Origin: a virus
IMG/VR virus record: IMGVR_UViG_3300027976_000140
Span: 1 to 29,791 of that record
Length of the DNA: 29,791 bases
Direction: 5' to 3' (one strand)
Made by a program: the position numbers and the translations under genes. This document shows positions 2 through 14,763 of the stretch, piece by piece. The first letter of the stretch is position 1. Each line of letters begins with the position of its first letter. The notes under the pieces are model-generated. The model was given only the letters and a program-made list of their open reading frames with translations. It ran no database searches and was not told where the DNA came from.

Positions 2-487
2 GAGAATGCCGGTGATCTTCAAATTTCCACTGATTTCAAAGAGGTACGACACTTTAGAGAGATCAATATTTCCTTGCATTGGCAGGATATTCATGATATG
101 TTTGTGGTGTGTGTACAAGAATCGTGGAAAGTGTATATGGGTCATATGAAAGTCCAATTTGATGTGCAGTGGCCTAGACAGTTTGGTTACGAACAATTCA
201 GAATGAAACGCTACATGCCCAACAACAAGGATCAGTTTGGTTTGCACACTGATGTGGGTAGCTACTCTTCAGCGCGCCGCTTCCTTGCATTTCAGTGGTA
301 TCTCAATACTCCAACACGAGGAGGTGAGACGGGTTTTGGAATAAACCCCGAAAACCCACAGTTGATTGTTCCCGCTGTTTGTGGTAGGATGTTGATGTTT
401 CCTCCATTATGGACTCACCCACACTGGGGTGCAAAGGTCCATGAGAGTCCCAAGTATATCGTTACTGGATATTTGCATTATATTTAG
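2..487 (+). CDS. 2-oxoglutarate/Fe(II)-dependent oxygenase, C-terminal part (5' end outside window)
   Basis: The frame is open from the first bases of the window, so the start lies upstream. The visible 161 residues carry the double-stranded beta-helix signature of 2OG/Fe(II) dioxygenases (prolyl-4-hydroxylase type). The iron ligands are an HxD pair (His codon 245-247, Asp codon 251-253) and a distal His in the WTHPHWG segment (codon 422-424). The KYIVTGY segment after it fits the 2-oxoglutarate-binding side. Phages often carry such enzymes, and they hydroxylate protein, nucleobase or small-molecule substrates. The substrate cannot be told here. A late promoter box and the next gene follow closely. 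Confidence 0.85.
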   Translation, partial: ENAGDLQISTDFKEVRHFREINISLHWQDIHDMFVVCVQESWKVYMGHMKVQFDVQWPRQFGYEQFRMKRYMPNNKDQFGLHTDVGSYSSARRFLAFQWYLNTPTRGGETGFGINPENPQLIVPAVCGRMLMFPPLWTHPHWGAKVHESPKYIVTGYLHYI

Positions 488-491
488 ATCA

Positions 492-499
492 CATAAATA
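492..499 (+). promoter_or_regulatory. T4-type late promoter box (CATAAATA)
   Basis: CATAAATA lies 22 bases upstream of the next start codon, between two genes. It differs by one base from the T4 late promoter box TATAAATA, which is recognised by phage-encoded sigma factor gp55. The same box recurs before the genes at 12775 and 17598. An AAGGAG ribosome-binding site (509-514) follows, 6 bases from the ATG. Confidence 0.65.
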
Positions 500-520
500 A
501 GGGATTACAAGGAGATCATC

Positions 521-2020
521 ATGGCTGTCACATCTCCCGCGAACATGAAGGTGGATCAAGTAGAGTTGAAAACTCTGCTCGATAAGCTTATCATCAAGTA
601 CCGAAAACCAAATGTGAGTTTTGACGGCGGGAATCAGATCAAGGTTCTCGGCCCAACGCCTCGCCCTGCCCGTGTTGATATCCTCAAGGCTATCGCGGGC
701 GTCTGTAACTCCATCAAGGGTGCATCAGGGGAATATCGTCCCGGTCAGAACAATCAACCAGGGGAAACTCGTTTCACGTCTCAGAAAAGCATCATAAAAA
801 TCATCGTCAAGCCTGGACTTGGTAAGCCCACGGTTGCTGAGATGCGACCAGCGGATATCAAGCCTGCTATCGTCAATGAATGGATGTCACCCAATCAAAT
901 GGTTAAGAATGTGTTGACCTACCTCAAGAATTATGACGGGTTGGGTGACACATTCAAAGCCAGAATAGCAAAGCTTCTGACAGATACAGAAAATGGTTCT
1001 ACACTCACGGTGCAATTTGCACACGATGATAAGATCGGTGACAAGATTGAACCAGAATTCTTTGAAATTCTGACCGCAATAAAAATTGCCGTTCTTTTGA
1101 GAAAGAACGACCTCACCATGCGAAAGATCTTGGGAATTCCCAATGAACGAGATCTACGCAAAGCAAAAATAAAGGTCTTCATTCCCTCTAAGTCTAACAC
1201 ACCCCTCTTGGACTATGAGTTGAGCATTTCTGAGAATGACAGCAAGCCTGATGAGCATCCAATTCGCATTAGTGTGAAATCCTCTTTTGAGGGTGGTTCA
1301 AGTAATTCTGTGAAATTTCCTGATGTGTTTGACAGCACCCGAGAAGTGGACCAGTGGTACAAAGCTCTACCGCAGTCTATGAGGTTGACACAGGGAGGTC
1401 CACGGGAGACTGCCTATACAGCCATGGAAACCAAGGAAAAGTTTGCTGGTAAATTGTTCCTCTTTCCTCTCCGCACGGTGAACAATCTTATAGGCAACAA
1501 GCCTGTTGTTGATGTCATTCTTCGACGTTTCATTGCTCCTGTGAAGGGATTGAAGGACATTAAGTTTTTGAAGATCGTGTTGACAGAAACATACAAGCAT
1601 TTTGGTTTATTGACACCTGCAACACTACTGTCTTCTGCCCCTATCAAGTTGAGTGCTGAAGTACAGAAGGAATTGCAGTTGTTCTTGAATGGCAACCTTG
1701 GAAAGCAGGGCGCAGCAGTAAAGGCAAACTTCACGGCAGGAAATTTAGGTGCCGTATGTGAGAAGATTCTCATTCAATGTGCTCGACCTGATAGCGAAAC
1801 CAAACACAACTACTATTCGATGTTCTATGATCAGGTTCTACGCAAGCGTCGTATCGCCTATGCAGTGGCTCATATACACGGTACAACCATTCGTTATGGT
1901 TTCTATTCCATGGTCAATTTCGAAAAGGAATATAATTATTGGGTAGCACTCCGCACCAAGAACTATATGAACGTCACCAGCGAGACGTTGGGTATGGACG
2001 TAAAAGCAAAAACAGGATAA
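521..2020 (+). CDS. Phage protein of unknown function, 499 aa
   Basis: I do not recognise a family with confidence. The ATG has an ideal AAGGAG ribosome-binding site (509-514) and a late promoter box just upstream, so it is probably expressed late. It has no signal peptide or membrane segment. The N-terminal half is rich in Lys and Ile and looks like a mixed alpha/beta fold. Around residues 245-265 an ISVKSS strand preceded by acidic residues recalls the core of PD-(D/E)xK nucleases, but this is too weak for a call. The C-terminus (from about residue 430) is rich in aromatic residues. The next gene starts 10 bases later and encodes a ligase-like protein, so the two are probably co-transcribed. 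Confidence 0.8.
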   Translation: MAVTSPANMKVDQVELKTLLDKLIIKYRKPNVSFDGGNQIKVLGPTPRPARVDILKAIAGVCNSIKGASGEYRPGQNNQPGETRFTSQKSIIKIIVKPGLGKPTVAEMRPADIKPAIVNEWMSPNQMVKNVLTYLKNYDGLGDTFKARIAKLLTDTENGSTLTVQFAHDDKIGDKIEPEFFEILTAIKIAVLLRKNDLTMRKILGIPNERDLRKAKIKVFIPSKSNTPLLDYELSISENDSKPDEHPIRISVKSSFEGGSSNSVKFPDVFDSTREVDQWYKALPQSMRLTQGGPRETAYTAMETKEKFAGKLFLFPLRTVNNLIGNKPVVDVILRRFIAPVKGLKDIKFLKIVLTETYKHFGLLTPATLLSSAPIKLSAEVQKELQLFLNGNLGKQGAAVKANFTAGNLGAVCEKILIQCARPDSETKHNYYSMFYDQVLRKRRIAYAVAHIHGTTIRYGFYSMVNFEKEYNYWVALRTKNYMNVTSETLGMDVKAKTG

Positions 2021-2030
2021 AAGGAATAAG

Positions 2031-3257
2031 ATGCTTAGTCTTAAAAATCTCAATGAATCAAAAGAGGGTAAGAATCTTCACTTGGAGCACCTGGAGGATC
2101 AGGTGCTCAATCGTGGGCTTGCAGGCGCCCACGAAGCCCTTGAATTTTTATATTCACTGAAAGCTATGCTTTCGGGGCATGTTGAGAAGCCTATCAATGT
2201 CACGATAAAGTGGGACGGAGCGCCCGCGGTGATTTGTGGTATCAATCCAGAGAATGGAAAATTTTTCGTGGGCACCAAGGGTGTCTTCTCCAAGGCAGCT
2301 AAACTGAACTACACCGAAGCAGATATTCTCAAGAATCACGAGGGAGAAGGTTTGCGTAGCAAGCTTATTCTATGTCTACGATACTTGCCAAAACTCGGCA
2401 TCAAGGGTATCTTGCAGGGCGACATGATGTTCTCGAAGGGTGACCTTCATACCCAGATTATTGCAGGGGAGAAGTATATCACATTCACCCCCAACACTAT
2501 CACCTATGCCATTCCACTGAATCAGACGGCTCTTGCTCAATCAATCCTGAAAGCACAGATTGGTATTGTGTTCCACACTGAGTATCGTGGTAAGACCATG
2601 GCAACCCTGAAATCCTCATTCAACATCGATATAGGATATTTGACTCACTCTAAAGATGTCTGGTTCCGTGATGCCTCGTTGGTTGATCAATCGGGTACGG
2701 CAACCTTCACCGCCTCTGAAACAGAGCGCCTTGGTGCGCTATTGACACAAGCCTCGGTAGCCTTACGAGCAATCAATGGTAAGATCCTGAATCAGATTTC
2801 CTTGAATGAGACGTTCCGCGGTTGGGTCAAACAGTTCAATAACACAAAGGTCAGAGCGGGAACAGCCATTGATAACACAACGGCACATACCAATGACTTT
2901 ATTCGTTGGTTGGATATAAAAATGACGGCATCCATTGGAGAAGCGAAGCAACCCGAAACCAAGCGCAAGCGTACCCAAGAGAAGACAACCATACTGGGAT
3001 TCTTTCGAGATCACCGATCTGACTTGAAGCAAATTTTTGACTTGACAAACACCCTCGTCTATGCTAAACTTGTGATCGTTAATAAACTAGGGCAGGTTCA
3101 AGGTACTCAGACCTTCCTCAAGACAGGTGATGGATTTGTGGCAACCGCGCCGGAAGGGTTTGTGGCTGTTGATAGAATAGGAAATGCCGTGAAGCTTGTT
3201 GATCGTTTGCAATTTAGCCATGCAAATTTCAACATTGCGAAGAATTGGACCAAGTAA
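2031..3257 (+). CDS. Ligase/nucleotidyltransferase-like phage protein (resembles DUF6267)
   Basis: The 408-residue product has a KWDG motif at residues 60-63, which matches motif I (KxDG) of ATP-dependent DNA/RNA ligases and capping enzymes. There the lysine is adenylylated. GTKG at 81-84 and QGDMM at 129-133 sit where later nucleotide-binding motifs would be expected, and HTEYRG lies at 182-187. The typical C-terminal OB domain is not obvious; residues after about 290 are Lys-rich and then beta-strand-like. Similar proteins in large myophages are annotated DUF6267; I make that link from memory. The N-terminus (Leu7-Asn8-Glu9/Ser10) resembles a T4 capsid-targeting peptide, so the protein may be carried in the virion. 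Polynucleotide joining is the first hypothesis and is unproven. Confidence 0.75.
   Translation: MLSLKNLNESKEGKNLHLEHLEDQVLNRGLAGAHEALEFLYSLKAMLSGHVEKPINVTIKWDGAPAVICGINPENGKFFVGTKGVFSKAAKLNYTEADILKNHEGEGLRSKLILCLRYLPKLGIKGILQGDMMFSKGDLHTQIIAGEKYITFTPNTITYAIPLNQTALAQSILKAQIGIVFHTEYRGKTMATLKSSFNIDIGYLTHSKDVWFRDASLVDQSGTATFTASETERLGALLTQASVALRAINGKILNQISLNETFRGWVKQFNNTKVRAGTAIDNTTAHTNDFIRWLDIKMTASIGEAKQPETKRKRTQEKTTILGFFRDHRSDLKQIFDLTNTLVYAKLVIVNKLGQVQGTQTFLKTGDGFVATAPEGFVAVDRIGNAVKLVDRLQFSHANFNIAKNWTK
3042..3070 (+). promoter_or_regulatory. Candidate sigma70 promoter inside the ligase-like gene
   Basis: TTGACA (3042-3047), a 17-base spacer and TAAACT (3065-3070) form a good sigma70-type promoter. 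The surrounding CTTGACAA is also found at the two intergenic promoters at 27622 and 29251. It lies inside a coding region about 240 bases before the glycan block, so it may give an early transcript for that block or may be chance. Confidence 0.35.
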
Positions 3258-3261
3258 GAGG

Positions 3262-3269
3262 ACTAAATA
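3262..3269 (+). promoter_or_regulatory. Late promoter-like box (ACTAAATA) before the glycan block
   Basis: ACTAAATA lies in the 50-base gap between the ligase-like gene and the first glycosyltransferase gene. It shares TAAATA with the other late boxes but is weaker than TATAAATA. A short hairpin follows (GTTGA/TCAAC, about 3275-3289, then TTTT), which could act as a weak terminator for the upstream transcript. Confidence 0.45.
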
Positions 3270-3307
3270 TCAGCGTTGAGTAGATCAACTTTTGTTATGG
3301 AGTTACT

Positions 3308-4183
3308 ATGAAAGACCTCGTGATCGGTGCTATTACAGGGTATAATTGGGATCAGATCAAACATTGGGTGAACTCCCTTGATCGTTCGGGATACACAGGC
3401 ATCAAGTCTGTGCTTGCCTATAATGTTGATTATGACACCTTGGGAGAACTTGAAAAGCGTGGGTATTCGATCCTTGCCTTTTCCAAGGATGATGAAAATA
3501 GACGTGTCACATACCCAAACAAAGATTTTGCTATCGTGGTCGACCGCTTCCTTCATTACTACCTCATGCTGGACAATCCTGCTAACCGTGCAGGAATTCG
3601 CTATGTGGTAGCAACTGATGTTCGTGATGTGATTTTCCAGAAAAATCCTTCAGACTACCTTGATCATTCCTACCTCCGTTCTCATGAACTCGTCCTCTCC
3701 TCAGAAGGTATTGCTTACCAGCATGAACCTTGGGGAGCAAACAACCTTCTCAAATCCTTCGGTCCTCTCATGTACGAGCGTCACAAAGAGAACACCATTG
3801 TCAATGCGGGTGTGCTCGCCGGTCAATTCGATACCTTCATGGGTTTGAGTAAGACAATCTATCTTCTTTCACACGGCACAACACAACAAGTGCCTGGCGG
3901 TGGGGGACCAGACCAAGCAGCACTCAACCTTCTCATATCCACCGCAGTCTATGACCATATCACTGAAATCGCCACTCACGAAAAGACGTGGGCCGCACAA
4001 CTGGGTACCATGATGGACCCCAGGAAGATTGATGCGTATCGCCCGTTCCTCACTGAAGCGTTACCCTCGTTTAACGCAGAGACCGGCATGGTGGTGAATC
4101 CAACTGGCACCCCTTACACAATCGTTCACCAATGGGACAGGGTTCCAGAAGTGGCAGAAGCAGTGGAAAGGTGTTACGCATGA
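3308..4183 (+). CDS. GT-A-type glycosyltransferase-like protein
   Basis: This 291-residue protein opens the glycan block. Residues 97-112 (around Thr103-Asp104-Val-Arg-Asp107) form a hydrophobic strand ending in an acidic DxxD, as at the nucleotide-sugar and metal site of GT-A enzymes. A GGGGPDQAALN segment near residue 200 and the VHQWDR end near residue 275 are typical of eukaryote-like and phage GT-A proteins that act on protein or glycan acceptors. The donor and acceptor cannot be told. The stop overlaps the next start as ATGA (4180-4183), so translation of the two is coupled. Confidence 0.7.
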   Translation: MKDLVIGAITGYNWDQIKHWVNSLDRSGYTGIKSVLAYNVDYDTLGELEKRGYSILAFSKDDENRRVTYPNKDFAIVVDRFLHYYLMLDNPANRAGIRYVVATDVRDVIFQKNPSDYLDHSYLRSHELVLSSEGIAYQHEPWGANNLLKSFGPLMYERHKENTIVNAGVLAGQFDTFMGLSKTIYLLSHGTTQQVPGGGGPDQAALNLLISTAVYDHITEIATHEKTWAAQLGTMMDPRKIDAYRPFLTEALPSFNAETGMVVNPTGTPYTIVHQWDRVPEVAEAVERCYA

Positions 4184-5217
4184 TTGAAGCAGAAATGCCT
4201 AGAGATTCTATGGAGCCTTCGCCAGCAACCAAGGCTCTGATGCTCACCCAGTCAAAAAAACTGAGGCGTATTCTCTTTGTGGTTCATCGCTATGGTTATT
4301 CTGGTGGCTCTGAGCAATACACAAAGGATATGGCAGAAGAGATGATGTCCCGCGGTCACTATGTCGTGGTGTTTGCAGGGGAGCACAAAGGTGACATGAA
4401 TGGAATCATCGTCACCTCAGAACCCATGATCCTCAAGGACAAGTGGGATTTGATCGTGGTTCATGGCGGAGATGTTGGTGTCCAGAATTTTGTGTTGGAA
4501 CGCGCCGAAGAACTCGGTGGTCCTGTACTCTATATGCTCATTCTACCTTCAAATTCACAGGTCTGTGTCGGTGCGCTCCATCGATCTGCTTATCTCGGAT
4601 GCTCGACATTGGCTGATTGGAGACATGTTCAAGATTGGAAAGCGGGTGATCGTGCCGTGAGAGTCAGACATGGTATCAATAGGGCTTCCTCTGTTGGTCG
4701 ACCGGGGTTCCGCAGCCTCTATGGGATCAACACCCCCTATATGTTCCTGTCCTCTGGTGGTTACTGGCCCAACAAAGCGTTTGGAGAATTGGTTGATACG
4801 TTCAATAAGGTTGGTCGTAAAGATGTCACCCTCGTTCTCACAGGATACGACAATCGGCACAACCTTATGCCAGAAGAGACAGAATTTGTGAAGCCTTTCC
4901 TGTTCGATAGCCGACAGGATATGCTTGACGCGCTCCTAGACGCCGACTTGTACATACTCAACAGCTACACAGAAGGCTTTGGATTGGTCTTGCTTGAGTC
5001 GATGCTCAACATGACACCATGGGTCGCTCGCGATATCGCCGGTGCTGAACTTATGCGCGAATATGGTTCGACCTATACCACACAAGGGGAATTGGAAGCG
5101 TATCTTCGTTCATTCAAGTCTATCAACGGAACCCACTTGCTTGAGGCACAGAAATATGTCATTTCTACACATCTTGTGAAGCATACTGTCAATGATATTC
5201 TGGTGGTCCTTGCATGA
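4180..5217 (+). CDS. GT4-family (GT-B fold) glycosyltransferase
   Basis: The ATG at 4180 is chosen because it gives an ATGA overlap with the previous gene. The 345-residue protein starts its Rossmann domain at about residue 29 (RILFVVHRYGYSGGSEQY, including the Gly-rich acceptor loop). It carries the EX7E motif of retaining GT4 enzymes at Glu265-Glu273 (EGFGLVLLE), which contacts the nucleotide sugar. The GGYWPNK segment near residue 195 starts the donor-binding domain. Length and motif spacing fit the family. It transfers a sugar from a nucleotide sugar to a glycan acceptor that cannot be identified here. Confidence 0.88.
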   Translation: MIEAEMPRDSMEPSPATKALMLTQSKKLRRILFVVHRYGYSGGSEQYTKDMAEEMMSRGHYVVVFAGEHKGDMNGIIVTSEPMILKDKWDLIVVHGGDVGVQNFVLERAEELGGPVLYMLILPSNSQVCVGALHRSAYLGCSTLADWRHVQDWKAGDRAVRVRHGINRASSVGRPGFRSLYGINTPYMFLSSGGYWPNKAFGELVDTFNKVGRKDVTLVLTGYDNRHNLMPEETEFVKPFLFDSRQDMLDALLDADLYILNSYTEGFGLVLLESMLNMTPWVARDIAGAELMREYGSTYTTQGELEAYLRSFKSINGTHLLEAQKYVISTHLVKHTVNDILVVLA

Positions 5218-5831
5218 TGACGTTTGGAATTATGACGATAGGGGACAATCTCACAAGGTTGTCAGAGGTCGTGCAATCGATCAAGGCTCTAGAAATTCCC
5301 AAGGTTGAGATCATCATTGCTGGCAGCTATAATGCTTCCTCAGATAGTTTGGATGGATTGGGGGCAAAGGTTATTCTTTCGAATGGTTGGTTGCCCAGGA
5401 AGAAGAATCTTGTAGCAAAGGTGGCAGAGAATGAAACACTCGTCTTGCTTCATGACTACTACCTCTTCAATCCAGAGTGGTACGAAGCCTACAGGAAATT
5501 TGGTGGTGGGTGGGATGTTTGTTCGAACCCCCAAATCCTTCTAAACGGCAAGCGTCATTTCACAGACTGGGTGCTGTGGGATCATCCAACACTTCCGCGG
5601 TATCATTCGTTGGACTATGACGTTTGGGATCAGACTAAATATCAGTATGTCAGTGGTGGTTATTTTCTTGTGATGCGAGACTTACTCAGAGCCAATCCTA
5701 TCAATGAAGCAATGCCCCCAGGTTCACCCGAAGATGTTGAGTGGAGTTTGCGAATCAGGGACAAGGCAATCATCCGATGCAATCCAGGTGCATTCGTGAG
5801 ACACAATAAGGCACACCGTGATAACACCTAA
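5214..5831 (+). CDS. GT2-like (GT-A fold) glycosyltransferase
   Basis: The start overlaps the previous stop (ATG at 5214). The 205-residue protein has the order of a short GT2-type domain: a beta strand (TFGIMTIGDN), a second strand (VEIIIAGSYN), and a hydrophobic strand ending in LLHDYYLF near residues 78-85, in place of the usual DxD. It ends with YVSGGYFLVMR and EDVEWSLRI, the acceptor and catalytic-base regions. It is shorter than many GT2 enzymes but the core is complete. The gap of 119 bases after it is the longest inside the block. Confidence 0.7.
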   Translation: MMTFGIMTIGDNLTRLSEVVQSIKALEIPKVEIIIAGSYNASSDSLDGLGAKVILSNGWLPRKKNLVAKVAENETLVLLHDYYLFNPEWYEAYRKFGGGWDVCSNPQILLNGKRHFTDWVLWDHPTLPRYHSLDYDVWDQTKYQYVSGGYFLVMRDLLRANPINEAMPPGSPEDVEWSLRIRDKAIIRCNPGAFVRHNKAHRDNT

Positions 5832-5950
5832 ACCCACAAAAGAAGAGTGCCCAGATATCCACACTCGCACTCAACCATCATTAGTAATGTTCCTTCAGTG
5901 GTTTGCGCCAGTATGGGGACGAAGCGAATCTCAAGTGGGGAAAGCACAAC
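5832..5950 (+). other. 119-base gap without a gene inside the glycan block
   Basis: No strong promoter, terminator hairpin or convincing reading frame was found here. A TTG codon at 5903 is in frame with the next gene, but the ATG at 5951 is the better start. The gap breaks the otherwise continuous overlapping gene chain, so the region from 5951 on may have been acquired as a separate unit. Confidence 0.4.
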
Positions 5951-7324
5951 ATGAAAAATAAATTGGTTATTTTTGATTTGGACGGTGTGTTGATCGACAG
6001 TCGAATGCTGCATTTCGCCGCGCTCAATCAAGCGATTGAACAGATCTACCCCGCGGCCGTCATATCGTGGGAGGAACATCTTTCGAAGTATGATGGTTTG
6101 CCTACAACAAAGAAGCTTCTTCTCCTCACTGAGGAGAAGGGATTGCCAGCAACGTCCTATGATCAAATCTGGAAAGCGAAACAGCAACACACGATCCACC
6201 TCTATGAGGGTATCAAACCAAGTCCAGCTCTCCAAACGATTTTTCACCTTCTTCAAATGCAGGGTATCAGAATCGCTGTGGCGACCAATAGCATCCGACA
6301 GACACTCGTGTTGGCATTATGCCAGCTCGGCGTCATGCCACAAGTGAACTACTTTGTCAGTAATGAAGATGTCGGGAATCCGAAACCCTTTCCTGAAATG
6401 TATTGGAAGTGTATGGTCGCCATGAGGACGGACGTATACAACACCGTTATTGTTGAAGATAGTCACATCGGTAGGGAAGGTGCTCTGGCGTCAGGTGCCC
6501 ACCTCATCCCAGTGTCAAACTCTTCAGATGTGACCATTGAACTTGGGGAGTCAATCGTAGACTACTTCAGGGGTGTGGTTCGGACCTCTGTTCCTTGGCG
6601 CGATAAGAAGTTGAATGTGGTTGTGCCTATGGCAGGTCACGGTTCACGCTTTGCTGTTGCTGGGTACACCTTCCCAAAACCTCTCATTGAGGTCAATGGA
6701 CGCCCCATGATCCAAGTCGTGAAGGAAAGCCTCAATATTGATGCACACTACATATTCATAGTACAGAAGGATCATTATGAGAAATATCAGTTGCGCTACA
6801 TGCTCAACATGATTTCCCCAGGGTGTGATATCGTACAGGTGGATGGTGTCACAGAGGGTGCAGCTTGCACGGTCCTGAAGGCTAAAGATTTGATCAATAA
6901 CGAGAACCCGATTCTCATTGCCAATTCCGACCAATGTGTTGAGTGGAATTCGAATGAGTGTTTGTATGCGTTTTCGGCTGATGGTATTGCTGGGGGAATT
7001 ATCACCTTCAAGTCTGTCCATCCCCAGTATTCTTTTGCCAAGGTAGATGACCAAGGATTTGTGAGTGAAGTTGCAGAGAAGAAAGTTATCTCTGATAATG
7101 CGACCGTTGGATTGTACTATTGGGCTCACGGTGCGGATTATGTGAATTGTGCCGAACAGATGATTCAAAAGAACATTCGCGTCAACAATGAATTCTATGT
7201 GTGCCCTGTGTATAATGAAGCCATTCAGAACGGTGCAAAGATTCGTGTAAAGAACGTCGAGAGAATGTGGTCACTGGGTACCCCAACGGACCTGGATTAT
7301 TATTTGAGGAATCACACCACATGA
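5951..7324 (+). CDS. HAD phosphatase fused to a sugar-type nucleotidyltransferase
   Basis: This 457-residue protein has two domains. Residues 1-210 are a HAD hydrolase of the phosphoglycolate phosphatase/beta-phosphoglucomutase type: Asp9 and Asp11 (FDLDGV), Thr112-Asn113-Ser114, Lys145 and Glu169-Asp170 are the four HAD motifs, with an alpha-helical cap between. Residues 222-457 are a nucleotidyltransferase of the sugar-1-phosphate type, with the Gly-rich loop around 228-234 (MAGHGSRF) followed by PKPLIEVNG. It probably dephosphorylates one intermediate and attaches a nucleotide to a sugar or polyol phosphate. The ATG at 5951 follows a GGGGAAAG-like ribosome-binding site. The gene directly precedes the cupin and RuBisCO-like genes. 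Confidence 0.88.
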   Translation: MKNKLVIFDLDGVLIDSRMLHFAALNQAIEQIYPAAVISWEEHLSKYDGLPTTKKLLLLTEEKGLPATSYDQIWKAKQQHTIHLYEGIKPSPALQTIFHLLQMQGIRIAVATNSIRQTLVLALCQLGVMPQVNYFVSNEDVGNPKPFPEMYWKCMVAMRTDVYNTVIVEDSHIGREGALASGAHLIPVSNSSDVTIELGESIVDYFRGVVRTSVPWRDKKLNVVVPMAGHGSRFAVAGYTFPKPLIEVNGRPMIQVVKESLNIDAHYIFIVQKDHYEKYQLRYMLNMISPGCDIVQVDGVTEGAACTVLKAKDLINNENPILIANSDQCVEWNSNECLYAFSADGIAGGIITFKSVHPQYSFAKVDDQGFVSEVAEKKVISDNATVGLYYWAHGADYVNCAEQMIQKNIRVNNEFYVCPVYNEAIQNGAKIRVKNVERMWSLGTPTDLDYYLRNHTT

Positions 7325-7641
7325 GAATGGATAGGATTGAACGCTTCAAGAATGGGTGGATCATCGGTGACTTCGAACCTTCATTACTTCGAACCAAGGA
7401 CTTTGAGATCTCCGTCATGCACCACAAGAAAGGTGCCTACATACCATTGCACTATCATCATCTCGTAGAAGAGATGAACGTGTTTGTGGTCGGCTCGATG
7501 ACCTGCAATGGTCGTTTGTTAGTGCCTGGGGATATCTTTATTTTCGAGAAAGATGAAGTGAGTGATTGTGATGTCCACGAGGATACCACCATTGTTGTTG
7601 TGAAAGTCCCTTCCATAATAGGAGACAAATATAATGTTTGA
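7321..7641 (+). CDS. Small cupin-domain protein
   Basis: The 106-residue product is a single cupin barrel. The first cupin motif is seen as LHYHHLVEEMNVFVVG (His44, His46 and Glu50 or Glu51 as metal ligands). The second motif is VPGDIFIFEKDE with a His at 86. Cupins of this size act as isomerases or epimerases, as dioxygenases, or as metal-dependent sugar-binding proteins. The gene overlaps both neighbours (ATGA at 7321 and an 8-base overlap at 7634), which ties it to the RuBisCO-like gene. I infer that it handles the same or the next metabolite. The reaction is unknown. Confidence 0.82.
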   Translation: MRMDRIERFKNGWIIGDFEPSLLRTKDFEISVMHHKKGAYIPLHYHHLVEEMNVFVVGSMTCNGRLLVPGDIFIFEKDEVSDCDVHEDTTIVVVKVPSIIGDKYNV

Positions 7642-8821
7642 TCCATTTCGCGAATCCGTCGATCCAGAGAAATATCTCATTGTCACCTATCACATGTCCA
7701 GTACGATCAGCCTGAAGAAGGCGGCATACGATCTAGCCATTGGTCAGAGTATGGGGAATCCCAATGAGCGCAATTCATGGGAAACAGATGAGATGTTTGA
7801 ACGACACTCGTGTTTGGTGTTGTCAACCACGCTGGAAGATGCCAAGGAGGGTTTCGTTGACATTGCATTCGCTGTTGAGAACACAGATTGGGATGGCGAT
7901 GGCATTGCCCATTTGATGTGTCAGATTTCTGGTGGTCAAGCAGACATCGACCATATCACTCGTTCACGGGTCATCGACCTGAAAATTCCTCAGTCAGTAC
8001 GCAAGCATTTCCATACCCCAAAATATGGTATCTCAGGGTTACGCGCATTCAATCAGCAATTCGATAAGCCATTTATGGGGGGAATTGTCAAGCCGAAAAC
8101 GGGACTCTCTCCTGCGCGATTACTTGAGATGGTCAAGCAAATGGTTGACGGTGGTGTAGATTTCATCAAGGAAGACGAGATTCTATCGAACCCACAGTTC
8201 TGTAGTTTAGCTGATAGGGTACCCCTGATTTCCAACTACATTCAGAACTGTGGCAGAGCAGTCAAGTATTGCTTTTCAATCAACGGAGATCCTCATGTAA
8301 TAGAAAGTCGCGTAAAATTCATTGCTTCTGAAGGTGGCAATGGAGTCCATATCAATTTTTGGAGTGGTCTTGGTGTGTATCATTCCATACGCCGACTTGA
8401 CCTCCCTATATACCTACACTATCAGAAGAGTGGTGATAAGGCTATCACGCACCATGCTAATGCGTTTGGAATTAGCTGGTATGTGATGTGCCAATTGGCT
8501 GCACTTGCCGGCGTTGACTCCCTTCATGCGGGCATGTATGGCGGCTATCTATCCGATGAAGAAACACAACTCAATATTCTAATGAAAATGCTGCAAACAA
8601 ACAATGTCATTCCAGGACTTTCCTGTGGTATGCACGCCGGCTTGGTCAACCATATTACCGAGCATGTGGGAAATGATTACTTGGCTAATACTGGTGGAGC
8701 AATACACGGACATCCGCGCGGCACGACCGCGGGATGCAAAGCTATGCGCCAAGCAATCGATCATACATATGGTACAGAGTATGATGAAGCAATCAAGAAG
8801 TGGGGTTTGATCAATGGATGA
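7634..8821 (+). CDS. RuBisCO-like protein (RLP, form IV-type)
   Basis: The 395-residue protein follows the RuBisCO large-subunit plan, an N-terminal ferredoxin-like domain and then a TIM barrel from about residue 145. In spinach numbering, residues equal to Lys175 and Lys177 (here 153 and 155, VKPKTGLS) and to the carbamylation and metal triad Lys201-Asp203-Glu204 (Lys179, Asp181, Glu182) are kept. So are His294 (His262), His327 (His298), Ser379 (Ser330) and the phosphate-binding GG (354-355, before HGHPRG). Lost are Arg295 (Tyr), His298 (Ser), loop-6 Lys334 (Tyr305), Asn123 (Gly) and probably Glu60. Carboxylation is therefore unlikely. Known RLPs catalyse enolization, isomerization or decarboxylation of sugar phosphates. 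The ATG has an AGGAGA site at 7620-7625. Confidence 0.9.
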   Translation: MFDPFRESVDPEKYLIVTYHMSSTISLKKAAYDLAIGQSMGNPNERNSWETDEMFERHSCLVLSTTLEDAKEGFVDIAFAVENTDWDGDGIAHLMCQISGGQADIDHITRSRVIDLKIPQSVRKHFHTPKYGISGLRAFNQQFDKPFMGGIVKPKTGLSPARLLEMVKQMVDGGVDFIKEDEILSNPQFCSLADRVPLISNYIQNCGRAVKYCFSINGDPHVIESRVKFIASEGGNGVHINFWSGLGVYHSIRRLDLPIYLHYQKSGDKAITHHANAFGISWYVMCQLAALAGVDSLHAGMYGGYLSDEETQLNILMKMLQTNNVIPGLSCGMHAGLVNHITEHVGNDYLANTGGAIHGHPRGTTAGCKAMRQAIDHTYGTEYDEAIKKWGLING

Positions 8822-9635
8822 TGTGTCAGTTTGGATTCTCACCTTCAATCGACCAGTAGCACTCAATCGTCTTGTGACAGGTCTGGGGCGTCAAGGCATT
8901 CGTTCGAATGTGATGTCCAACCATTCTGTTGTAGAATACACCGATGAGTCGAAGAGTTACTTGGATCGAACGGTAGTCAACAGCTTGAACACCGATGAGT
9001 CGAATTGCTGGAATGCGAGAAGTTGGAACAGTGTATTTCTGAAAGCCCTACAGAAGAGTGAGACCGCGGGTATTGCTTGCATACAAGATGATACCTTTGT
9101 CCATCCTGAGTTTGCCACCTGGCTGAGGGAATGGAGAAAGCAATATGATTTCATTTGGGGACCAGCGGGTGATCAGTTCTACTATCTCACTCTCGATGTC
9201 CTCAAGAAGTCTGGTTGGTGGGATGAGCGATTCTCCTCTCCGTATTGCGGGGATGCCGACTTCATGAAACGGGTATTCCATTCTGGGTATGACAGAACAC
9301 GGATGAGTATCGAAGACACCCATGATTGGGGTCACATACACAATCCTATAGGGGTGAGGAGTGCTATTCGCACCGAGCTCCAGAGTAAGGCGTGTGATGC
9401 CAATTATGAGAATGTGCATTGGCACATGGAGAGAATCAAGACCCAGGAAAAGAATCGTGTCCTCTTGGGCGCCCAATCCTTTTTCAAGGAAAAATGGGGA
9501 CATGTGCTCAATAACAATACACCAGTCACCACAACCTATCTTCCAAACATTGAAGAGATAGATTGGTACCCGTGGGCGACTACTAAGTATGGTATCACAG
9601 CTTATGATATCCGATACGAAAGGAGTATGCGTTGA
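8814..9635 (+). CDS. GT2-like glycosyltransferase
   Basis: The 273-residue protein starts 8 bases before the end of the RuBisCO-like gene. The N-terminus (VSVWILTFNRP) is the typical first strand of a GT-A enzyme. IACIQDDTFVHPEF at 87-100 gives the acidic metal-binding motif (Asp92-Asp93). GWWDERFSSPYCGDADFMKR near residue 136-156 matches the conserved GxxDE-type and ED-type catalytic regions of GT2-like enzymes. A 16-base direct repeat lies in the gene. The donor sugar is unknown, and the context suggests that it may use the activated product made by the genes upstream. Confidence 0.72.
   Translation: MDDVSVWILTFNRPVALNRLVTGLGRQGIRSNVMSNHSVVEYTDESKSYLDRTVVNSLNTDESNCWNARSWNSVFLKALQKSETAGIACIQDDTFVHPEFATWLREWRKQYDFIWGPAGDQFYYLTLDVLKKSGWWDERFSSPYCGDADFMKRVFHSGYDRTRMSIEDTHDWGHIHNPIGVRSAIRTELQSKACDANYENVHWHMERIKTQEKNRVLLGAQSFFKEKWGHVLNNNTPVTTTYLPNIEEIDWYPWATTKYGITAYDIRYERSMR
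8938..9004 (+). repeat. Two 16-base direct repeats inside the glycosyltransferase gene
   Basis: ACACCGATGAGTCGAA occurs at 8938-8953 and at 8989-9004. The copies are 51 bases apart and in the same reading frame, so both encode a TDES segment. This probably marks a short internal duplication. Confidence 0.6.
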
Positions 9636-10291
9636 GAACAAAAGATGAATTTTTTCAGCATGGGATGATGGATGAGTGGAACCGGGCCCGGGTCGAAGCG
9701 TTGACTGTTGCGCTAGGCGCAGGCTGGTTTCCAGGCAAGCGTGTCCTCGATGTGGGGTGTGGACATGGCAACAACGGTAGACTCATTGAGAAGTTGGGTG
9801 CTCAGGTCGCATTTACCGATGGTCGCCAATTCTTTGTGGACTTCCTCATAGGGGACGGATACGAAGCCTATCTTGTGGACCACGACACTGCATGGACTGT
9901 CCCAGGAAATTTCGACTTGATCGTTCATTGGGGATTGCTCTATCACCTAGACAACTGGAAACAGGATTTGGAACATTGTTTTCTGGTTGCCCCCAGGGTG
10001 TGCCTTGAAACAGAGATCATTGATTTGTCAGATCCTACCTATGAACAGAAGAAAAATGAGATGGATCAATATGACCATGCCGTGAATCGCATTGGAACGG
10101 TTATGTCAGCCAACAATCTTCAGGCACACGTTGAATCACTCGGCGCAAGCTGGACCCGTTACGATGCGTCCAGTTTGAATATTCCTGCCGGCTCCTCACA
10201 TGGCACACATTATTATGATTGGTTAGAAACAAACAGCGGAGTCTTCCGACAGGGGCAGCGACGGTTTTGGATGATCACAAAGGATGCATGA
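9632..10291 (+). CDS. SAM-dependent methyltransferase (TTG start)
   Basis: The 219-residue protein has a clear class I methyltransferase motif I, VLDVGCGHGNNG (38-49), an acidic residue after the second strand (FTDGRQFF), and a motif IV-like segment (FDLIVHWGLLYHLDNW). The start is TTG at 9632, overlapping the previous stop (TTGA). An AGGAG site at 9621-9625 lies 6 bases upstream, which supports TTG over later ATG codons (first at residue 12). The substrate is unknown. It is the first of four methyltransferases in the block, so the final glycan or metabolite is probably methylated at several positions. Confidence 0.85.
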   Translation: MRTKDEFFQHGMMDEWNRARVEALTVALGAGWFPGKRVLDVGCGHGNNGRLIEKLGAQVAFTDGRQFFVDFLIGDGYEAYLVDHDTAWTVPGNFDLIVHWGLLYHLDNWKQDLEHCFLVAPRVCLETEIIDLSDPTYEQKKNEMDQYDHAVNRIGTVMSANNLQAHVESLGASWTRYDASSLNIPAGSSHGTHYYDWLETNSGVFRQGQRRFWMITKDA

Positions 10292-10839
10292 ACGTGACAA
10301 CTATCGTAGAGGTTGGCGCCCATAAGGGAATTGAAACATTCAACTTCCTCACTGATGCTGAGGCATTGGTGTATGCGTTCGAACCTGATGTCAATAACTT
10401 TCAAGAGTTGTATGTAAAGTCGCAGTCCTATTCTAGGCTCACTGTTCTTCCGTTCGCTGTGGATATTGGAGATAACCAAGAGCCATTGTTTGAACAGCCC
10501 GATGGTCAGAGTACTCTACAACCACCTTGGGGGCAACCAGGTGCTGCATTTAGGATGGTCTGGACAATACGACTCGATACCTTCATGAGATTATACTCGA
10601 TTGAGAAAATCGATTATCTTCGAATCGATGCACCCTTCAGGGATGAGATGTGTCTTGAGAGTCTTGGAAGCATGGTTGATCGGGTGCAACGCGGTCGAGT
10701 GTGTGTCTATACGATGAGGGGATTCGAAGGTTATGCCCAAAGTCTTGTACCAGAATTTTTGCGCAATAACGGGTTTGAGTGTGAGTATAACTCGTCTACC
10801 GAATCGGGCAGAACTGAGATTCGATTTTGGAGACCGTGA
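10288..10839 (+). CDS. FkbM-like methyltransferase, copy 1
   Basis: The 183-residue protein starts at an ATGA overlap at 10288. It has the FkbM pattern: TIVEVGAHKGIETF (motif I), VYAFEPD (end of strand 2, Glu for the SAM ribose), LPFAVD, and IDYLRIDAP in the position of the IDxEG segment. The second half is less canonical. It is a paralogue of the gene at 10972, with the same motif order and similar length (183 against 203 residues). FkbM-type enzymes methylate hydroxyl groups of sugars and secondary metabolites. Confidence 0.8.
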   Translation: MNVTTIVEVGAHKGIETFNFLTDAEALVYAFEPDVNNFQELYVKSQSYSRLTVLPFAVDIGDNQEPLFEQPDGQSTLQPPWGQPGAAFRMVWTIRLDTFMRLYSIEKIDYLRIDAPFRDEMCLESLGSMVDRVQRGRVCVYTMRGFEGYAQSLVPEFLRNNGFECEYNSSTESGRTEIRFWRP

Positions 10840-10861
10840 GGGTGGGATTTTAACCGACCCC

Positions 10862-10975
10862 ATGGGCGAAGATGTGGTAGAGGAATTGACACCATTATGC
10901 TCTGAAGAACTCTCTAAGTCAATTGCTCGTTTTACGTTGGAAAAACTTCTTGGACATGGGGAGAATAAATTATGA
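10862..10975 (+). CDS. Candidate small protein, 37 aa
   Basis: Between the two FkbM-like genes an ATG at 10862 opens a 37-codon frame whose stop overlaps the next ATG (10972). The peptide (MGEDVVEELTPLC followed by a Leu-rich helical end) is acidic and would form one or two helices. There is no strong ribosome-binding site. It could be a real small gene coupled to the next one, or the remnant of a longer gene. I recognise no family. Confidence 0.4.
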   Translation: MGEDVVEELTPLCSEELSKSIARFTLEKLLGHGENKL

Positions 10976-11583
10976 AAATCGTTGTGGAACTCGGTGCAAA
11001 CAATGGCGATGACACTGCAAGGTTACTCGCCGAACATAATCCCGATAGGTTGTATGCAGCAGAACCGGACCCAGTATTGTTCTCTCGCCTCGTACAGCGA
11101 TTCTCAGGTGATCTTCGTGTCATTCTGTGGCCCTTCGCGGTCCACACCGAGGATGCAATCAAGACCTTCAATATCATGGAGCATGAGCGTGGTATCAACA
11201 GCCTCTACCCACTCCACCCCAACCTCCTCAACACCCCGCTGCAAAAGCATTGGCAATACCAGAAGGGTATGACAGGACAGATCACTGTCCACACCATCAA
11301 CTTCGCCACATTGTTAGACCTATATAATATTGATCACATTGACTACATGTGGTCCGACTGTCAAGGCAATGACCTCTTGGCACTCAAGAGTATGGGCGAC
11401 AGGATTCAGAATCTCCGGCGCGGCCGTTGCGAAGTGACGTATCAGGTGCCTGTCTACATAACTGATGTTGACAACACCTATGTGAGTATGATGGCGTTCC
11501 TTGATAGTGTGGGGTTCAAGCACAGAGTTGATTATGTGCACCAGGATAATTCCGAGATCGATATTATATATTGGAGGGATTGA
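10972..11583 (+). CDS. FkbM-like methyltransferase, copy 2
   Basis: The 203-residue protein opens with IVVELGANNGDDT (motif I, residues 3-15), then LYAAEPDPVLFSRL (strand 2 with Glu), ILWPFAVH and the IDYMWSDCQGNDLLAL segment that replaces the IDVEG motif of FkbM enzymes. It overlaps both neighbours. Compared with copy 1 it has a longer middle part and a more regular motif I. It probably methylates a sugar hydroxyl of the same product. Confidence 0.84.
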   Translation: MKIVVELGANNGDDTARLLAEHNPDRLYAAEPDPVLFSRLVQRFSGDLRVILWPFAVHTEDAIKTFNIMEHERGINSLYPLHPNLLNTPLQKHWQYQKGMTGQITVHTINFATLLDLYNIDHIDYMWSDCQGNDLLALKSMGDRIQNLRRGRCEVTYQVPVYITDVDNTYVSMMAFLDSVGFKHRVDYVHQDNSEIDIIYWRD

Positions 11584-12254
11584 TGTCAGAACACTTTTTG
11601 AAATTGTTGGAACGTGAAGCCGCACAGTGGACCCTGGAAAACAGAGAGCCAGTTGTGGGATGGTACAATGAACACAATGCCGATAAGAACGAGGAATTGT
11701 TGTTCAGAGGTATCCCCGTCAAGCAGAACACCCTCGCTTTAGAGTATGGGTGTGGTCCTGGAAGAAACCTTATCAAGTTCAATGGTTGGTTTGCACGAAT
11801 CGACGGAGCAGATCGTTCGCCTGGCATTCTTTCGAAGGTGCCTTTGAATTTGGGTGCCGCTGGTGTTCCAGTTCCATTGCTCTACCTCACTGATGGACAC
11901 TCCTTGCCACAGGTTGAGAATGAAACCTATGATGTGGTATTCTCGTTGATCTGTATGCAGCACATTTCCTGTCGTGAATGGAGATTGGACCTCTATAAGG
12001 AATTCTTGCGCGTCCTGAAGCCGGGTGGATTTTTCACCTTCCAGATGGGCTATGGTCCTGGACACAATCACTCTGTCGATTACTTCCACGGTTACGATGG
12101 AACCGATAACCCTGATGTGCGCGTTGAGCGAGTTGAGGATCTTCAGAAGGACATTGAGGATAATGGGTTCACCGGGTTTGTGCATGTGTTCACTGAACCT
12201 TGCCATGACTTACACCCACAATGGATCTGGGTCCGATGTCAGAAACCCCTGTAA
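11583..12254 (+). CDS. SAM-dependent methyltransferase
   Basis: The 223-residue protein has motif I LALEYGCGPGRNL (51-63), an acidic post-II region (IDGADRSPGIL), motif IV (YDVVFSLICMQHI) and LRVLKPGGFFTFQMG, which is the standard Methyltransf_11/25 order. The ATG at 11583 is chosen because it overlaps the previous stop (TGATG) and a GGAGGG site lies just before it (11574-11579). It overlaps the next gene by 19 bases. The substrate is unknown. Confidence 0.87.
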   Translation: MSEHFLKLLEREAAQWTLENREPVVGWYNEHNADKNEELLFRGIPVKQNTLALEYGCGPGRNLIKFNGWFARIDGADRSPGILSKVPLNLGAAGVPVPLLYLTDGHSLPQVENETYDVVFSLICMQHISCREWRLDLYKEFLRVLKPGGFFTFQMGYGPGHNHSVDYFHGYDGTDNPDVRVERVEDLQKDIEDNGFTGFVHVFTEPCHDLHPQWIWVRCQKPL

Positions 12255-12736
12255 GGCTGATCGCCCATAGGGGCAACGTCGAAGGCATCAACAGAGAAAA
12301 AGAGAACACGCTTGACTATATCGACCTCGCAATCCGCCTTGGCTATGATGTCGAGGTGGATGTGTGGGGTAAAGAAGGTCAATTTGGATTGTGGTTGGGC
12401 CACGATAGCCCCACACATCATATCAACTTTGACTTCTTGGTAACGCGGATTCAATATCTCTGGGTGCATTGTAAGAATGCCAGAGCCTTGTACCTCATGA
12501 GAGAGTATGCACCAGAGTGCCGATTCTTTTTCCACCAGACAGATGACTACGCCCTCACAAGTTGGTATGATATTTGGTGTTATCCAGAAAAGAGTCCTTA
12601 TGGTTCCCATGCAGTCATTGTTCTTCCTGAGCAATGGATGAAGCTAGAGGATCTTCCGAAGTACATAAACCACTTTCAGGTGACGGGAGTTTGTTCTGAT
12701 TCTGTAGGACAAATCAAAAGACGTATAAATAGTTGA
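12236..12736 (+). CDS. Short glycerophosphodiester phosphodiesterase-like protein
   Basis: The 166-residue protein carries the catalytic pattern of the GDPD/PI-PLC-like superfamily: His11-Arg12 (AHRG), Glu40 and Asp42 (VEVDVW), and His56 (GHDSP). Family enzymes are usually 230-300 residues long, so this is a short version with about half to two thirds of the barrel. Short forms like this occur in polysaccharide gene clusters, which fits the context. It could hydrolyse a phosphodiester in a glycan or lipid. The late promoter box of the next block lies inside its last codons (12724-12731). Confidence 0.75.
   Translation: MSETPVRLIAHRGNVEGINREKENTLDYIDLAIRLGYDVEVDVWGKEGQFGLWLGHDSPTHHINFDFLVTRIQYLWVHCKNARALYLMREYAPECRFFFHQTDDYALTSWYDIWCYPEKSPYGSHAVIVLPEQWMKLEDLPKYINHFQVTGVCSDSVGQIKRRINS
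12724..12731 (+). promoter_or_regulatory. T4-type late promoter box (TATAAATA)
   Basis: TATAAATA is a perfect match to the T4 late promoter box. It lies 43 bases upstream of the ATG at 12775, overlapping the end of the GDPD-like gene. It should drive the late block 12775-17558. Confidence 0.75.
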
Positions 12737-12774
12737 TCGGAAACAATAACTTCCACCTGTAGAGGGTGCTATTC

Positions 12775-14763
12775 ATGCGTTCTTTTCTCGAAATAACTGA
12801 AGCCACAGAAAAACATGCGGTGCTCGCCTATGGGCGACTCAACCCGCCCACCACAGGTCACGCAAAACTTGTTGATAAAGTTCACGAAATTGCCCAAACA
12901 CACAAGGCAACCCATTCGGTTGTCCTCAGTAATTCTGTAGACCCCAAGAAGAATCCACTCTCGCAAGGTCAAAAGATCAAACACGCCCAGCGTTTCTTTC
13001 CTAAGACCAACATCGTCGCTGCCGACAAACAACTACCGACAATTTTCCATCATGCAGCCAATGCACACAAAGAGGGTGTACTCCACCTCCATGTCGTCGC
13101 TGGCGATGATCGAGTCAAACACTTCCAGGATTCTTTAAACAAGTACAACGGTCATTTTGATAAAGATGGCAATGGCTATAAGTTCAAGTCCATCACCGTA
13201 CATTCTGCTGGAAAGCGGGATGACAACGCCAAAGGCACAGAAGGTATGTCTGCGAGCAAAATGCGCGATCATGCTACTAAAGGGAATTTTGCAGAATTCA
13301 AAAAAGGTGTTCCGAGCCATGTCAAACATGAACATGCCAAGGAACTCTATGATGAAGTTCGAAAGGGTCAATCCTTGAAAGAAGAAACTGACAATATGGA
13401 CTACCTCTCCGAAGGTGTCCATGATGCTAGTATTTTCAAAGCCGTCTTCTTGGCAGGAGCCCCAGGATCAGGAAAAGATTTCGTCCTGAAGAAAGCACTT
13501 GAGGGACATGGTTTTACGGAAATCAATTCTGACAAAGCCCTTGAGCATCTGATGGCCAAAGCCTCACTCGATAAGAAAATGCCTGAGCATGAACAGGAAC
13601 GCCGTAATGTGGTCCGTGACAGAGCAAAGTCTATGACTGAACTTCGCCAGCGCCTCGCCATCCACGGTCGCAATGGGTTGATCATCAACAGCACAGGCGC
13701 CTCTCATGTCAAATTAAAGAAGCTCAAGGATATGCTATCAGAGCTAGGCTATGATAATAAGATGATCTTCGTGGACGCCTCAGATAATGTCAGCCGTAAC
13801 CGCAACGTGGAACGAGGACAGCGCGGCGGTCGTATGATCCCTGAGAAAATCCGTTCTGAGAAATGGCGCGAAGCGCAAGATGCACGAGTCAAATTTGCCG
13901 AGCTATTCGGGGGAGAACACTACCACGAATTCAATAACGATGAGGACTTGAGGCACAACACGGACCCTGAGGTTCACTCACAGAAGAGTGCTGAACTGGA
14001 TGGTCTACATAAGACTGTTCGTAAGTTCGCCCAGACACCAGTAAAGTCTGCCCAAGCCCAACAGTGGATTCATACCAATATGGGTAAGTTGGCAAAGATG
14101 CCTGTGGGCAATACCAAGCAACAAGCGAATGTCATTCCTCCCCATCCAGAGTCAAGAGCAAAGCGCGAAGCTGATGGGCTTGGACTCAAATACATGGGTC
14201 ATGGGCGATATGGTAAAGATGGTCGTGTGACTCACTATACCTTACATGATCGTTTGATTGAAAAGCAGAAGGCCCTCAAGCCCCCAGTGAAGAAGGTAGA
14301 GACAGTTCACGACTTGAACAATACAAAATCAGAAGCGAAGAAACTCAACGAAGAATTCACAGAACTTTTTATGGAGGATATGGATCATGGGACTACTGAA
14401 ATGGTTAGAGAAATTGATGCCAAACAATACTTCAGTGACGCCTTTCAAGGACATAGAGGAGATCGATCTAACTTGGCCAACCACAGCGGTTTCGTTGACC
14501 TTGCAGACTGTCAAGAAGAAGTCCAAGAAGAAACCAGCCAAGAAGGTTCGCAAGGTCCAAAAGACTTTCACAGATTTCGACAAGGATTGGTCGTTTCAAG
14601 TTCCAAAGAAATCCAAGAAAGTTCGCCGGTAGTCGATACGATGGAAACAGGGGGACCTATCCTGGGTGGTGGTCCCTCTGAAACCAACGATATGAGCAAG
14701 GGTGGACTCTCTACGAGTGTTCCAAAGAAAACACTCAAGCAAGTGTTGAGGGGAAACAAGTAA
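12775..14763 (+). CDS. Nucleotidyltransferase-P-loop kinase fusion, late head-associated candidate
   Basis: The 662-residue protein starts with MRSFLEITEA, in which Ile7-Thr8-Glu9/Ala10 fits the T4 prohead protease site (I/L-x-E before A/G/S). Residues 14-180 are a cytidylyltransferase-fold domain of the NMNAT/PPAT kind: GRLNPPTTGH (20-29) is the nucleotide-binding TxGH motif and SASKMR (159-164) is the matching C-terminal motif. A second LSE/G site lies at 211-214. Residues 220-385 are a P-loop kinase (GAPGSGKD at 228-235), similar to zeta-toxin or polynucleotide-kinase-type folds. The last 130 residues are of low complexity and overlap another frame with better protein character (14387-14632). 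The ATG at 12775 has an AGAGGG site. Substrates are unknown. Confidence 0.82.
   Translation: MRSFLEITEATEKHAVLAYGRLNPPTTGHAKLVDKVHEIAQTHKATHSVVLSNSVDPKKNPLSQGQKIKHAQRFFPKTNIVAADKQLPTIFHHAANAHKEGVLHLHVVAGDDRVKHFQDSLNKYNGHFDKDGNGYKFKSITVHSAGKRDDNAKGTEGMSASKMRDHATKGNFAEFKKGVPSHVKHEHAKELYDEVRKGQSLKEETDNMDYLSEGVHDASIFKAVFLAGAPGSGKDFVLKKALEGHGFTEINSDKALEHLMAKASLDKKMPEHEQERRNVVRDRAKSMTELRQRLAIHGRNGLIINSTGASHVKLKKLKDMLSELGYDNKMIFVDASDNVSRNRNVERGQRGGRMIPEKIRSEKWREAQDARVKFAELFGGEHYHEFNNDEDLRHNTDPEVHSQKSAELDGLHKTVRKFAQTPVKSAQAQQWIHTNMGKLAKMPVGNTKQQANVIPPHPESRAKREADGLGLKYMGHGRYGKDGRVTHYTLHDRLIEKQKALKPPVKKVETVHDLNNTKSEAKKLNEEFTELFMEDMDHGTTEMVREIDAKQYFSDAFQGHRGDRSNLANHSGFVDLADCQEEVQEETSQEGSQGPKDFHRFRQGLVVSSSKEIQESSPVVDTMETGGPILGGGPSETNDMSKGGLSTSVPKKTLKQVLRGNK
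14387..14632 (+). CDS. Candidate overlapping gene, 81-aa Lys-rich protein in another frame
   Basis: Inside the 3' part of the preceding gene, but in another frame, an ATG at 14387 has a strong GGAGGA site (14373-14378, spacer 8). The 81-residue product begins MGLLKWLEKLMPN, then has a TPFKDIEEIDLTWP segment and a strongly basic end with two KKSKK blocks. Its codon choice (AAG, GTC, TTC, GTT) is like that of neighbouring genes, and the fusion protein's own frame here gives an odd His/Gln/Ser-rich tail. Either this is a true overlapping gene, or the long frame should end earlier. A third short segment (14641-14763) could restart translation after its stop. Confidence 0.5.
   Translation: MGLLKWLEKLMPNNTSVTPFKDIEEIDLTWPTTAVSLTLQTVKKKSKKKPAKKVRKVQKTFTDFDKDWSFQVPKKSKKVRR

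Follow-up and report, generated by a model that had tools for sequence, protein, structure and literature searches.

The RuBisCO-like protein (RLP) encoded at 7634–8821 is, with a probability that we put at roughly 0.5, an enzyme that rearranges a sugar phosphate within a portable phage cassette, the product of the cassette being a nucleotide-activated sugar destined for a phage-directed surface glycan. Known roles of the RuBisCO fold are carbon fixation, methionine salvage and the catabolism of branched sugar acids. The RLP described here is tied to activated-sugar genes, and therefore probably helps to build an unusual sugar rather than fixing carbon.

The DNA analysed, here called the window, is the 29,791-bp IMG/VR virus record IMGVR_UViG_3300027976_000140. 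A contig from another metagenome (L002) shows 100% identity to the window over 9,437 bp, from 442 to 9878; G+C content is even along the contig, and the gene order is shared by related contigs across many phages. On these grounds we reject a chimera of phage and bacterial DNA, the artefact against which the initial annotation had cautioned. Phage genes for primase, thymidylate synthase and ribonucleotide reductase lie around the cassette. The window starts within a partial 2OG-Fe(II) oxygenase gene (2–487, Pfam 37.5 bits), and at 12766–14763 it encodes a 665-aa protein in which a cytidylyltransferase domain is joined to a P-loop (AAA_33/Zeta-like) kinase domain; relatives of this protein recur in syntenic contigs (cluster 67). 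The features of the RLP region are as follows.

3308–4183, plus strand: glycosyltransferase-like protein, a weak match (PHROG 1579, E 1e-4)
4132–5217, plus strand: GT4-type glycosyltransferase (Pfam Glyco_trans_1_4, 45.5 bits)
5903–7324, plus strand: fusion of a HAD phosphatase/mutase (residues ∼20–204) and a sugar-1-phosphate nucleotidyltransferase (NTase; residues ∼235–470)
7321–7641, plus strand: small cupin of ∼106 aa with an HxHx4E metal motif (PHROG 24762, 102 bits)
7634–8821, plus strand: RLP, a complete 395-aa frame with the full RuBisCO fold
8814–9635, plus strand: 273-aa protein overlapping the RLP stop codon (cluster 9, recurring in 15 loci of the syntenic group)
9632–12254, plus strand: four SAM-dependent methyltransferases, two of FkbM type (Pfam)
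12221–12736, plus strand: GDPD-type phosphodiesterase-like protein of 171 aa with HRG, E-x-D and HD motifs

The RLP matches Pfam RuBisCO_large at 138.5 bits (cut-off 30.1) and RuBisCO_large_N at 23.7 bits (cut-off 20.7), and has both the N-terminal alpha/beta domain and the TIM barrel that define the superfamily (PF00016/PF02788). An AlphaFold2 model, for which 60 family members served as input, reached a pLDDT of 92.8 and a pTM of 0.90. The solved structures nearest to this model are RuBisCOs and RLPs, the top one being form III RuBisCO 2cwx (Z 44.7, rmsd 2.2 over 379 residues, 26% identity); the IV-Photo structures 1ykw and 2qyg, at Z ∼42 and 23–25% identity, are level with other groups. The Pfam matches and the model, which was also among the checks proposed in the initial annotation together with the comparison of active sites, bear out its description of a full-length RuBisCO relative. 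The family is under strong purifying selection, and since the median dN/dS is 0.065 (96 pairs) a chance reading frame is excluded.

In order to place the family, a maximum-likelihood tree was built with forms I, II and III, MtnW (2,3-diketo-5-methylthiopentyl-1-phosphate enolase), OiaX (3-oxo-isoapionate-4-phosphate decarboxylase) and OiaX-like proteins as references, clades IV-GOS and IV-Photo being left out. The OiaX reference was confirmed at 780 bits and the MtnW reference checked against PDB 2zvi. The family groups into a single clade (support 100/100) whose long branch lies apart from all the reference groups; the adjacent clade in the careful tree is MtnW, a placement that is weak (94/74). 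Against NCBIfam, the RLP scores 117.4 for MtnW (cut-off 513.6), lying outside the MtnW clade (100/100), 151.6 for OiaX (cut-off 700), again lying outside that clade, and 187.9 for the form III equivalog (cut-off 497.45). With the family HMM, members score at least 385 bits (one partial copy 299) and all other sequences 209 or less. Thus, relative to the groups in the tree, the RLP does not fall inside a known RLP group, a placement that by the initial annotation's own account would have told against it, and membership of MtnW and of OiaX is rejected by residues, scores and tree alike. In the broad sense of a RuBisCO homolog without the residues needed for carboxylation, it belongs to form IV. 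The RLP clade IV-GOS is named in PMC10173188, and a 2007 ocean survey had already noted RuBisCO homologs outside the known forms (PMC1821046); the phage clade may therefore coincide with one of these groups.

Active-site residues were compared by aligning 118 family members to sequences of forms I/II/III, MtnW and OiaX, using spinach numbering for the references. The residues of the metal and carbamate triad, K179, D181 and E182 (spinach K201, D203 and E204), and both lysines of the KPK motif, K153 and K155 (spinach K175 and K177), are invariant in 118/118 members, so that at these positions the RLP has what a catalytic RuBisCO has, with carbamylation predicted. H298 corresponds to spinach H327, a site that is His in 93 members and Gln in 25, and S330, G332 and G355 match S379, G381 and G403. 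Other residues of catalytic RuBisCO are lacking: loop-6 K334 is replaced by Y305 (Tyr in 118/118), N123 by G101 (Gly in 118/118), H294 by Q264 (Gln in 118/118), T65 by N42 (Asn in 118/118) and R295 by K265 (Lys in 99 members, Ser in 19). Spinach H298 has become D268, mostly Asp across the family, E60 has become G37 (Gly in all members), G380 is C331 (Cys in all 118) and G404 is A356. With T65, W66, K334 and G404 all changed, the P1 phosphate site appears altered. These data agree with the initial annotation, which listed the triad, both KPK lysines, one active-site His and the phosphate loop as kept and Arg295, His298, Lys334 and Asn123 as lost; they add H294, E60, T65, G404 and G380 to the losses.

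The change at position 294 sets the family apart. This His is conserved in the other RLP groups compared, and because it is Gln in the phage family, known RLP mechanisms offer a limited analogy. MtnW, OiaX and the OiaX-like RLPs have lost K177 and kept H294, the inverse of what is seen in the phage family. Judging from the alignment, none of the other RuBisCO families in the comparison has this active-site signature, and carboxylation by the RLP is very unlikely. Compared system by system, form III RuBisCO (Pyrococcus horikoshii 2cwx) shares the two-domain fold, the KPK lysines and the carbamate triad with the RLP, yet K334, N123, H294, R295, H298, E60, T65 and G404 are changed in the latter, which lies in a separate clade. 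OiaX and the OiaX-like 3nwr are, like the RLP, RuBisCO-like and non-carboxylating; however, they lack K177 and keep H294, R295 and K334, the reverse of the RLP, and the setting of OiaX is catabolic whereas that of the RLP consists of NDP-sugar genes. MtnW shares the fold and the triad, and its pathway also uses a HAD protein and a cupin, but the K177, N123, H294, R295 and K334 sites differ, and there are no methionine-salvage genes by the RLP.

The RLP sits in a mobile cassette made up of an NTase, a cupin, the RLP and usually a small GDPD-type phosphodiesterase. Clustering of neighbours at 117 RLP loci placed a sugar-phosphate NTase beside the RLP in 112, a ∼107-aa cupin adjacent to it in 91 and a ∼150-aa GDPD-like protein in 80, while most other neighbours vary. 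Most loci have the cupin and RLP immediately downstream of the NTase, and two loci (L075, L114) are near-minimal three-gene NTase-cupin-RLP units with opposite-strand genes on both sides. Even in deep cellular homologs (L046, L049) the RLP lies beside an NTase, and at deep-branching loci (L046, L048) a canonical full-length GDPD is found near it. By distance correlation, the cassette is not set apart from certain glycan genes next to it (RLP–NTase r 0.65, RLP–methyltransferase r 0.62), and such correlations are thus too unspecific to prove co-evolution.

Within the window, the genes from NTase to RLP and beyond are tightly packed: the NTase TGA overlaps the cupin ATG at 7321–7324, the cupin overlaps the RLP by 8 bp (7634–7641), and the RLP overlaps the next gene at 8814–8821. 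The initial annotation had the RLP overlapping a cupin and a glycosyltransferase. The cupin stands (PHROG 24762, with its HxH...E motif); the glycosyltransferase label for 8814–9635 is unconfirmed, because that protein has a marginal PHROG match (E 0.008) and no match in Pfam or NCBIfam. The GT4 glycosyltransferase at 4132–5217 is upstream of the RLP and does not overlap it. The HAD-NTase fusion matches Pfam HAD_2 at 86 bits and NCBIfam PGMB, RmlA and GlmU-like models. The NTase family profile matches 4evw over its full length (E 2e-31), and relatives exceed the Pfam cut-off, the window copy alone falling below it (20.2 vs 27); no NCBIfam equivalog cut-off that would give a sugar or nucleotide specificity was reached. 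The HAD domain is missing from most RLP cassettes. Some phages carry a second HAD-NTase fusion beside the cassette NTase (as in L017, 13569–14966), and more than one activated sugar may therefore be made per locus. Searched against the PDB, the cupin profile matched KdgF, quercetinase and oxalate decarboxylase; RmlC/FdtA enzymes were not found.

The GDPD-like protein of the window scores below the Pfam cut-off (11.8 vs 23.6). Its motif residues are invariant or nearly so across the family alignment, its profile matches the PDB GDPD 7e0v (E 2.4e-5), and its AlphaFold2 model (pLDDT 94.8) is a barrel with Z 12.2 to GDPD 1o1z; catalytic motifs on a GDPD barrel are what define the GDPD family, and the protein has both. 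The methyltransferases at 9632–12254 probably serve glycan decoration. Among other arrangements, SAR11 contigs (L040–L045) have a version in which the RLP lies between two NTase-type genes, one of them very divergent and without a Pfam match (L043, 4930–5667); in L043 the RLP adjoins a ThyX-type thymidylate synthase gene. Two RLP loci (L303, L342) differ from the remaining RLP loci of the sample in having a GHMP-type sugar kinase, encoded on the opposite strand.

In cultured cyanophages the cassette occurs in part and the RLP is absent. Bellamy and SynMITS9220M01 encode, upstream of the cupin, a fusion of an NTase with an RpiB/LacAB sugar-phosphate isomerase (102 bits, exceeding the subfamily cut-off), and a PfkB-type kinase and a KdsC-type phosphatase precede the NTase-RpiB gene. 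This cassette shares with that of the RLP a homologous cupin (44–50% identity), an NTase, a GDPD-like protein and a location in a T4-like phage glycan region, but has the RpiB isomerase, kinase and phosphatase instead of the RLP. The two versions were never seen together: of 122 cupin-centred loci whose flanks were complete, the RLP occurs in 60, RpiB in 51 and both in none. PfkB and KdsC are nearly always present at the RpiB loci; of the rest, nine have PfkB/KdsC without a detected RpiB and two have neither. RpiB, PfkB and KdsC were absent from all 116 RLP-centred loci. On the cupin and NTase trees the split appears as a single deep switch, which argues for one natural replacement rather than many and leads us to reject repeated independent exchange of RLP and RpiB. 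The RpiB version has kinase and phosphatase genes that are absent from the RLP version, so one gene has not simply taken the place of another. The sugars made by the two versions may differ.

ADP/GDP-heptose-type pathways employ an isomerase, a kinase, a HAD phosphatase and a nucleotidyltransferase, and the RpiB cassette follows the same enzyme logic; in the RLP cassette, by contrast, the RLP and cupin replace the isomerase-kinase-phosphatase set. RpiB enzymes carry out aldose-ketose isomerisation through an enediol(ate), and some RLPs are isomerases. An RpiB-type operon (L338, 1997–5000) encodes a GDPD-KdsC fusion, a PfkB-like kinase, an NTase-RpiB fusion and a cupin; the predicted GDPD-KdsC fusion ties the GDPD to the same pathway. 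RLP-free glycan regions of Synechococcus phage S-SM2 (L208, 2388–7663) and Bellamy (L209) also have a class II aldolase, small HAD_PNKP-like phosphatases, a large NTase and a GDPD-like gene, and a product there annotated as 'phosphoheptose isomerase' has, contrary to that name, a weak match to a HAD phosphatase model.

The RLP family is carried by hundreds of environmental bacteriophages. A scan with the family alignment found relatives encoded by at least 339 viral contigs, so a lone metagenomic oddity is rejected, and a T4-type Gp23 major capsid gene was present in 7 of the 22 source contigs tested. In bacterial and archaeal genomes a pattern-based scan, which can miss divergent members, found only 17 RLP loci, in SAR11 single cells, Crocinitomicaceae, Patescibacteria, Verrucomicrobia, Elusimicrobia and DPANN archaea; some of these, on short contigs, may be of viral origin. 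The RLP occurs in 2/297 sampled SAR11-order genomes, one of the two being the search centre, and a recent loan from SAR11 is thus unsupported. Two queries of 50,697 phage records found no RLP, nor is there one in PHROGs. No full RuBisCO fold was among the best matches in the BFVD viral structures (best TM 0.40), a weak list that does not prove absence.

Several other readings of the RLP have to be weighed against isomerisation or epimerisation of a sugar phosphate. It is conceivable, though in our view doubtful, that the phosphate of a sugar acid or keto-sugar is cleaved or decarboxylated by the RLP, in an OiaX-like retro-aldol reaction or decarboxylation, to supply a short C3–C5 unit to the NTase. 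RLPs that decarboxylate are known, the OiaX-like 3nwr is the PDB entry closest in sequence (143 bits), and a class II aldolase occurs in the related RLP-free cassettes of S-SM2 and Bellamy; however, the OiaX score is 152 against a cut-off of 700, the clades are separate, and the OiaX residues K334, R295 and H294 are all changed. Somewhat less probable is action after the NTase, on an NDP-sugar, with the cupin as an RmlC/FdtA-type sugar-nucleotide isomerase. The position of cupin and RLP directly behind the NTase in most loci would suit this order, and cupins are common NDP-sugar isomerases; set against it, what an active site of the RuBisCO fold binds is a terminal phosphate, a PDB search with the cupin profile misses RmlC/FdtA, and the RpiB isomerase of the sister cassette acts on sugar phosphates.

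A rewired methionine salvage, in which RLP enolase, HAD phosphatase and cupin dioxygenase would parallel MtnW, MtnX and MtnD, draws on the fact that the same three fold types stand side by side in the window. We consider it highly improbable, given an MtnW score of 117 vs 513.6, a separate clade, differences from MtnW at the K177, H294, R295 and K334 sites, and a HAD that is missing from most cassettes where the NTase is nearly always present. That the RLP is decaying or no longer catalytic and has a role in structure or regulation, as the loss of several RuBisCO catalytic residues might suggest, is scarcely tenable when the metal/carbamate triad and KPK lysines are invariant in 118 members and the median dN/dS is 0.065. 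To a functional RuBisCO serving as a carbon-fixation auxiliary metabolic gene (AMG) we give virtually no credence: annotation pipelines do name such viral genes rbcL, EC 4.1.1.39 (PMC12607003), but K334→Tyr, N123→Gly, H294→Gln, T65→Asn and E60→Gly are found in all members and the form III score is 188 vs 497. Residues, scores and tree together lead us to reject carbon fixation.

The preferred reading is thus that of a sugar-phosphate rearrangement. Because the RLP keeps the residues for Mg2+ binding and enediolate chemistry, has lost those for carboxylation and alternates with an isomerase set, enolisation followed by reprotonation is the best supported reaction. A ketose phosphate would be bound by Mg2+ held on carbamylated Lys179 with Asp181 and Glu182; the carbamate of Lys179 would abstract a proton to give the enediolate, and Lys153 and Lys155 would reprotonate the neighbouring carbon, the net result being isomerisation or epimerisation with no carboxylation. 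The product would be activated by the NTase, fused in the window to a HAD phosphatase/mutase, the cupin and GDPD-type protein presumably taking further steps, and the activated sugar would then be transferred and methylated. We infer the substrate, the direction of the reaction and the order of steps. The NTase, cupin and GDPD-like protein common to both cassettes point, as far as sequence can, to a nucleotide-activated sugar, and the NTase in 112/117 loci supports the earlier suggestion that an RLP reaction is used in building a glycan or activated metabolite, the reaction itself being predicted.

The initial annotation knew of no described phage RLP in such a setting. For the setting this holds: our literature search, which covered few subscription journals and preprints, found no description of the clade, its active site, the cassette or the sister version, nor, where aimed at phage RLPs, any description of these. 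Viral rbcL genes as such have already been reported: the accessible text of PMC12607003 lists them as carbon-fixation AMGs in landfill viruses and in random IMG/VR viruses, states that one product clusters with 'RbcL-like' proteins, and cites a Great Salt Lake virus with rbcL. These are virus-encoded RuBisCO homologs like the RLP, and possibly belong to its family; that text holds no active-site or cassette analysis of them.

We are slightly more inclined than not to believe that this viral-dominated clade, with its hitherto undescribed Gln294/Tyr334/Gly123 site and its intact KPK motif, carries out a new enolisation-type reaction in making a nucleotide-activated sugar, and that the cassette, three to four genes long, is passed between T4-like phages, SAR11 and other bacteria and archaea with small genomes, serving as an interchangeable module for diversity of surface glycans. 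Because the cassette is compact and its sister version uses a conventional isomerase, the substrate of the RLP is directly testable. If the reading is true, an anabolic role in phage glycans would place the RuBisCO fold, the best known of enzyme folds, in a biological setting new to it and probably add a new reaction, and the interpretation of viral rbcL as a carbon-fixation AMG would be corrected, at least for members of the RLP clade.
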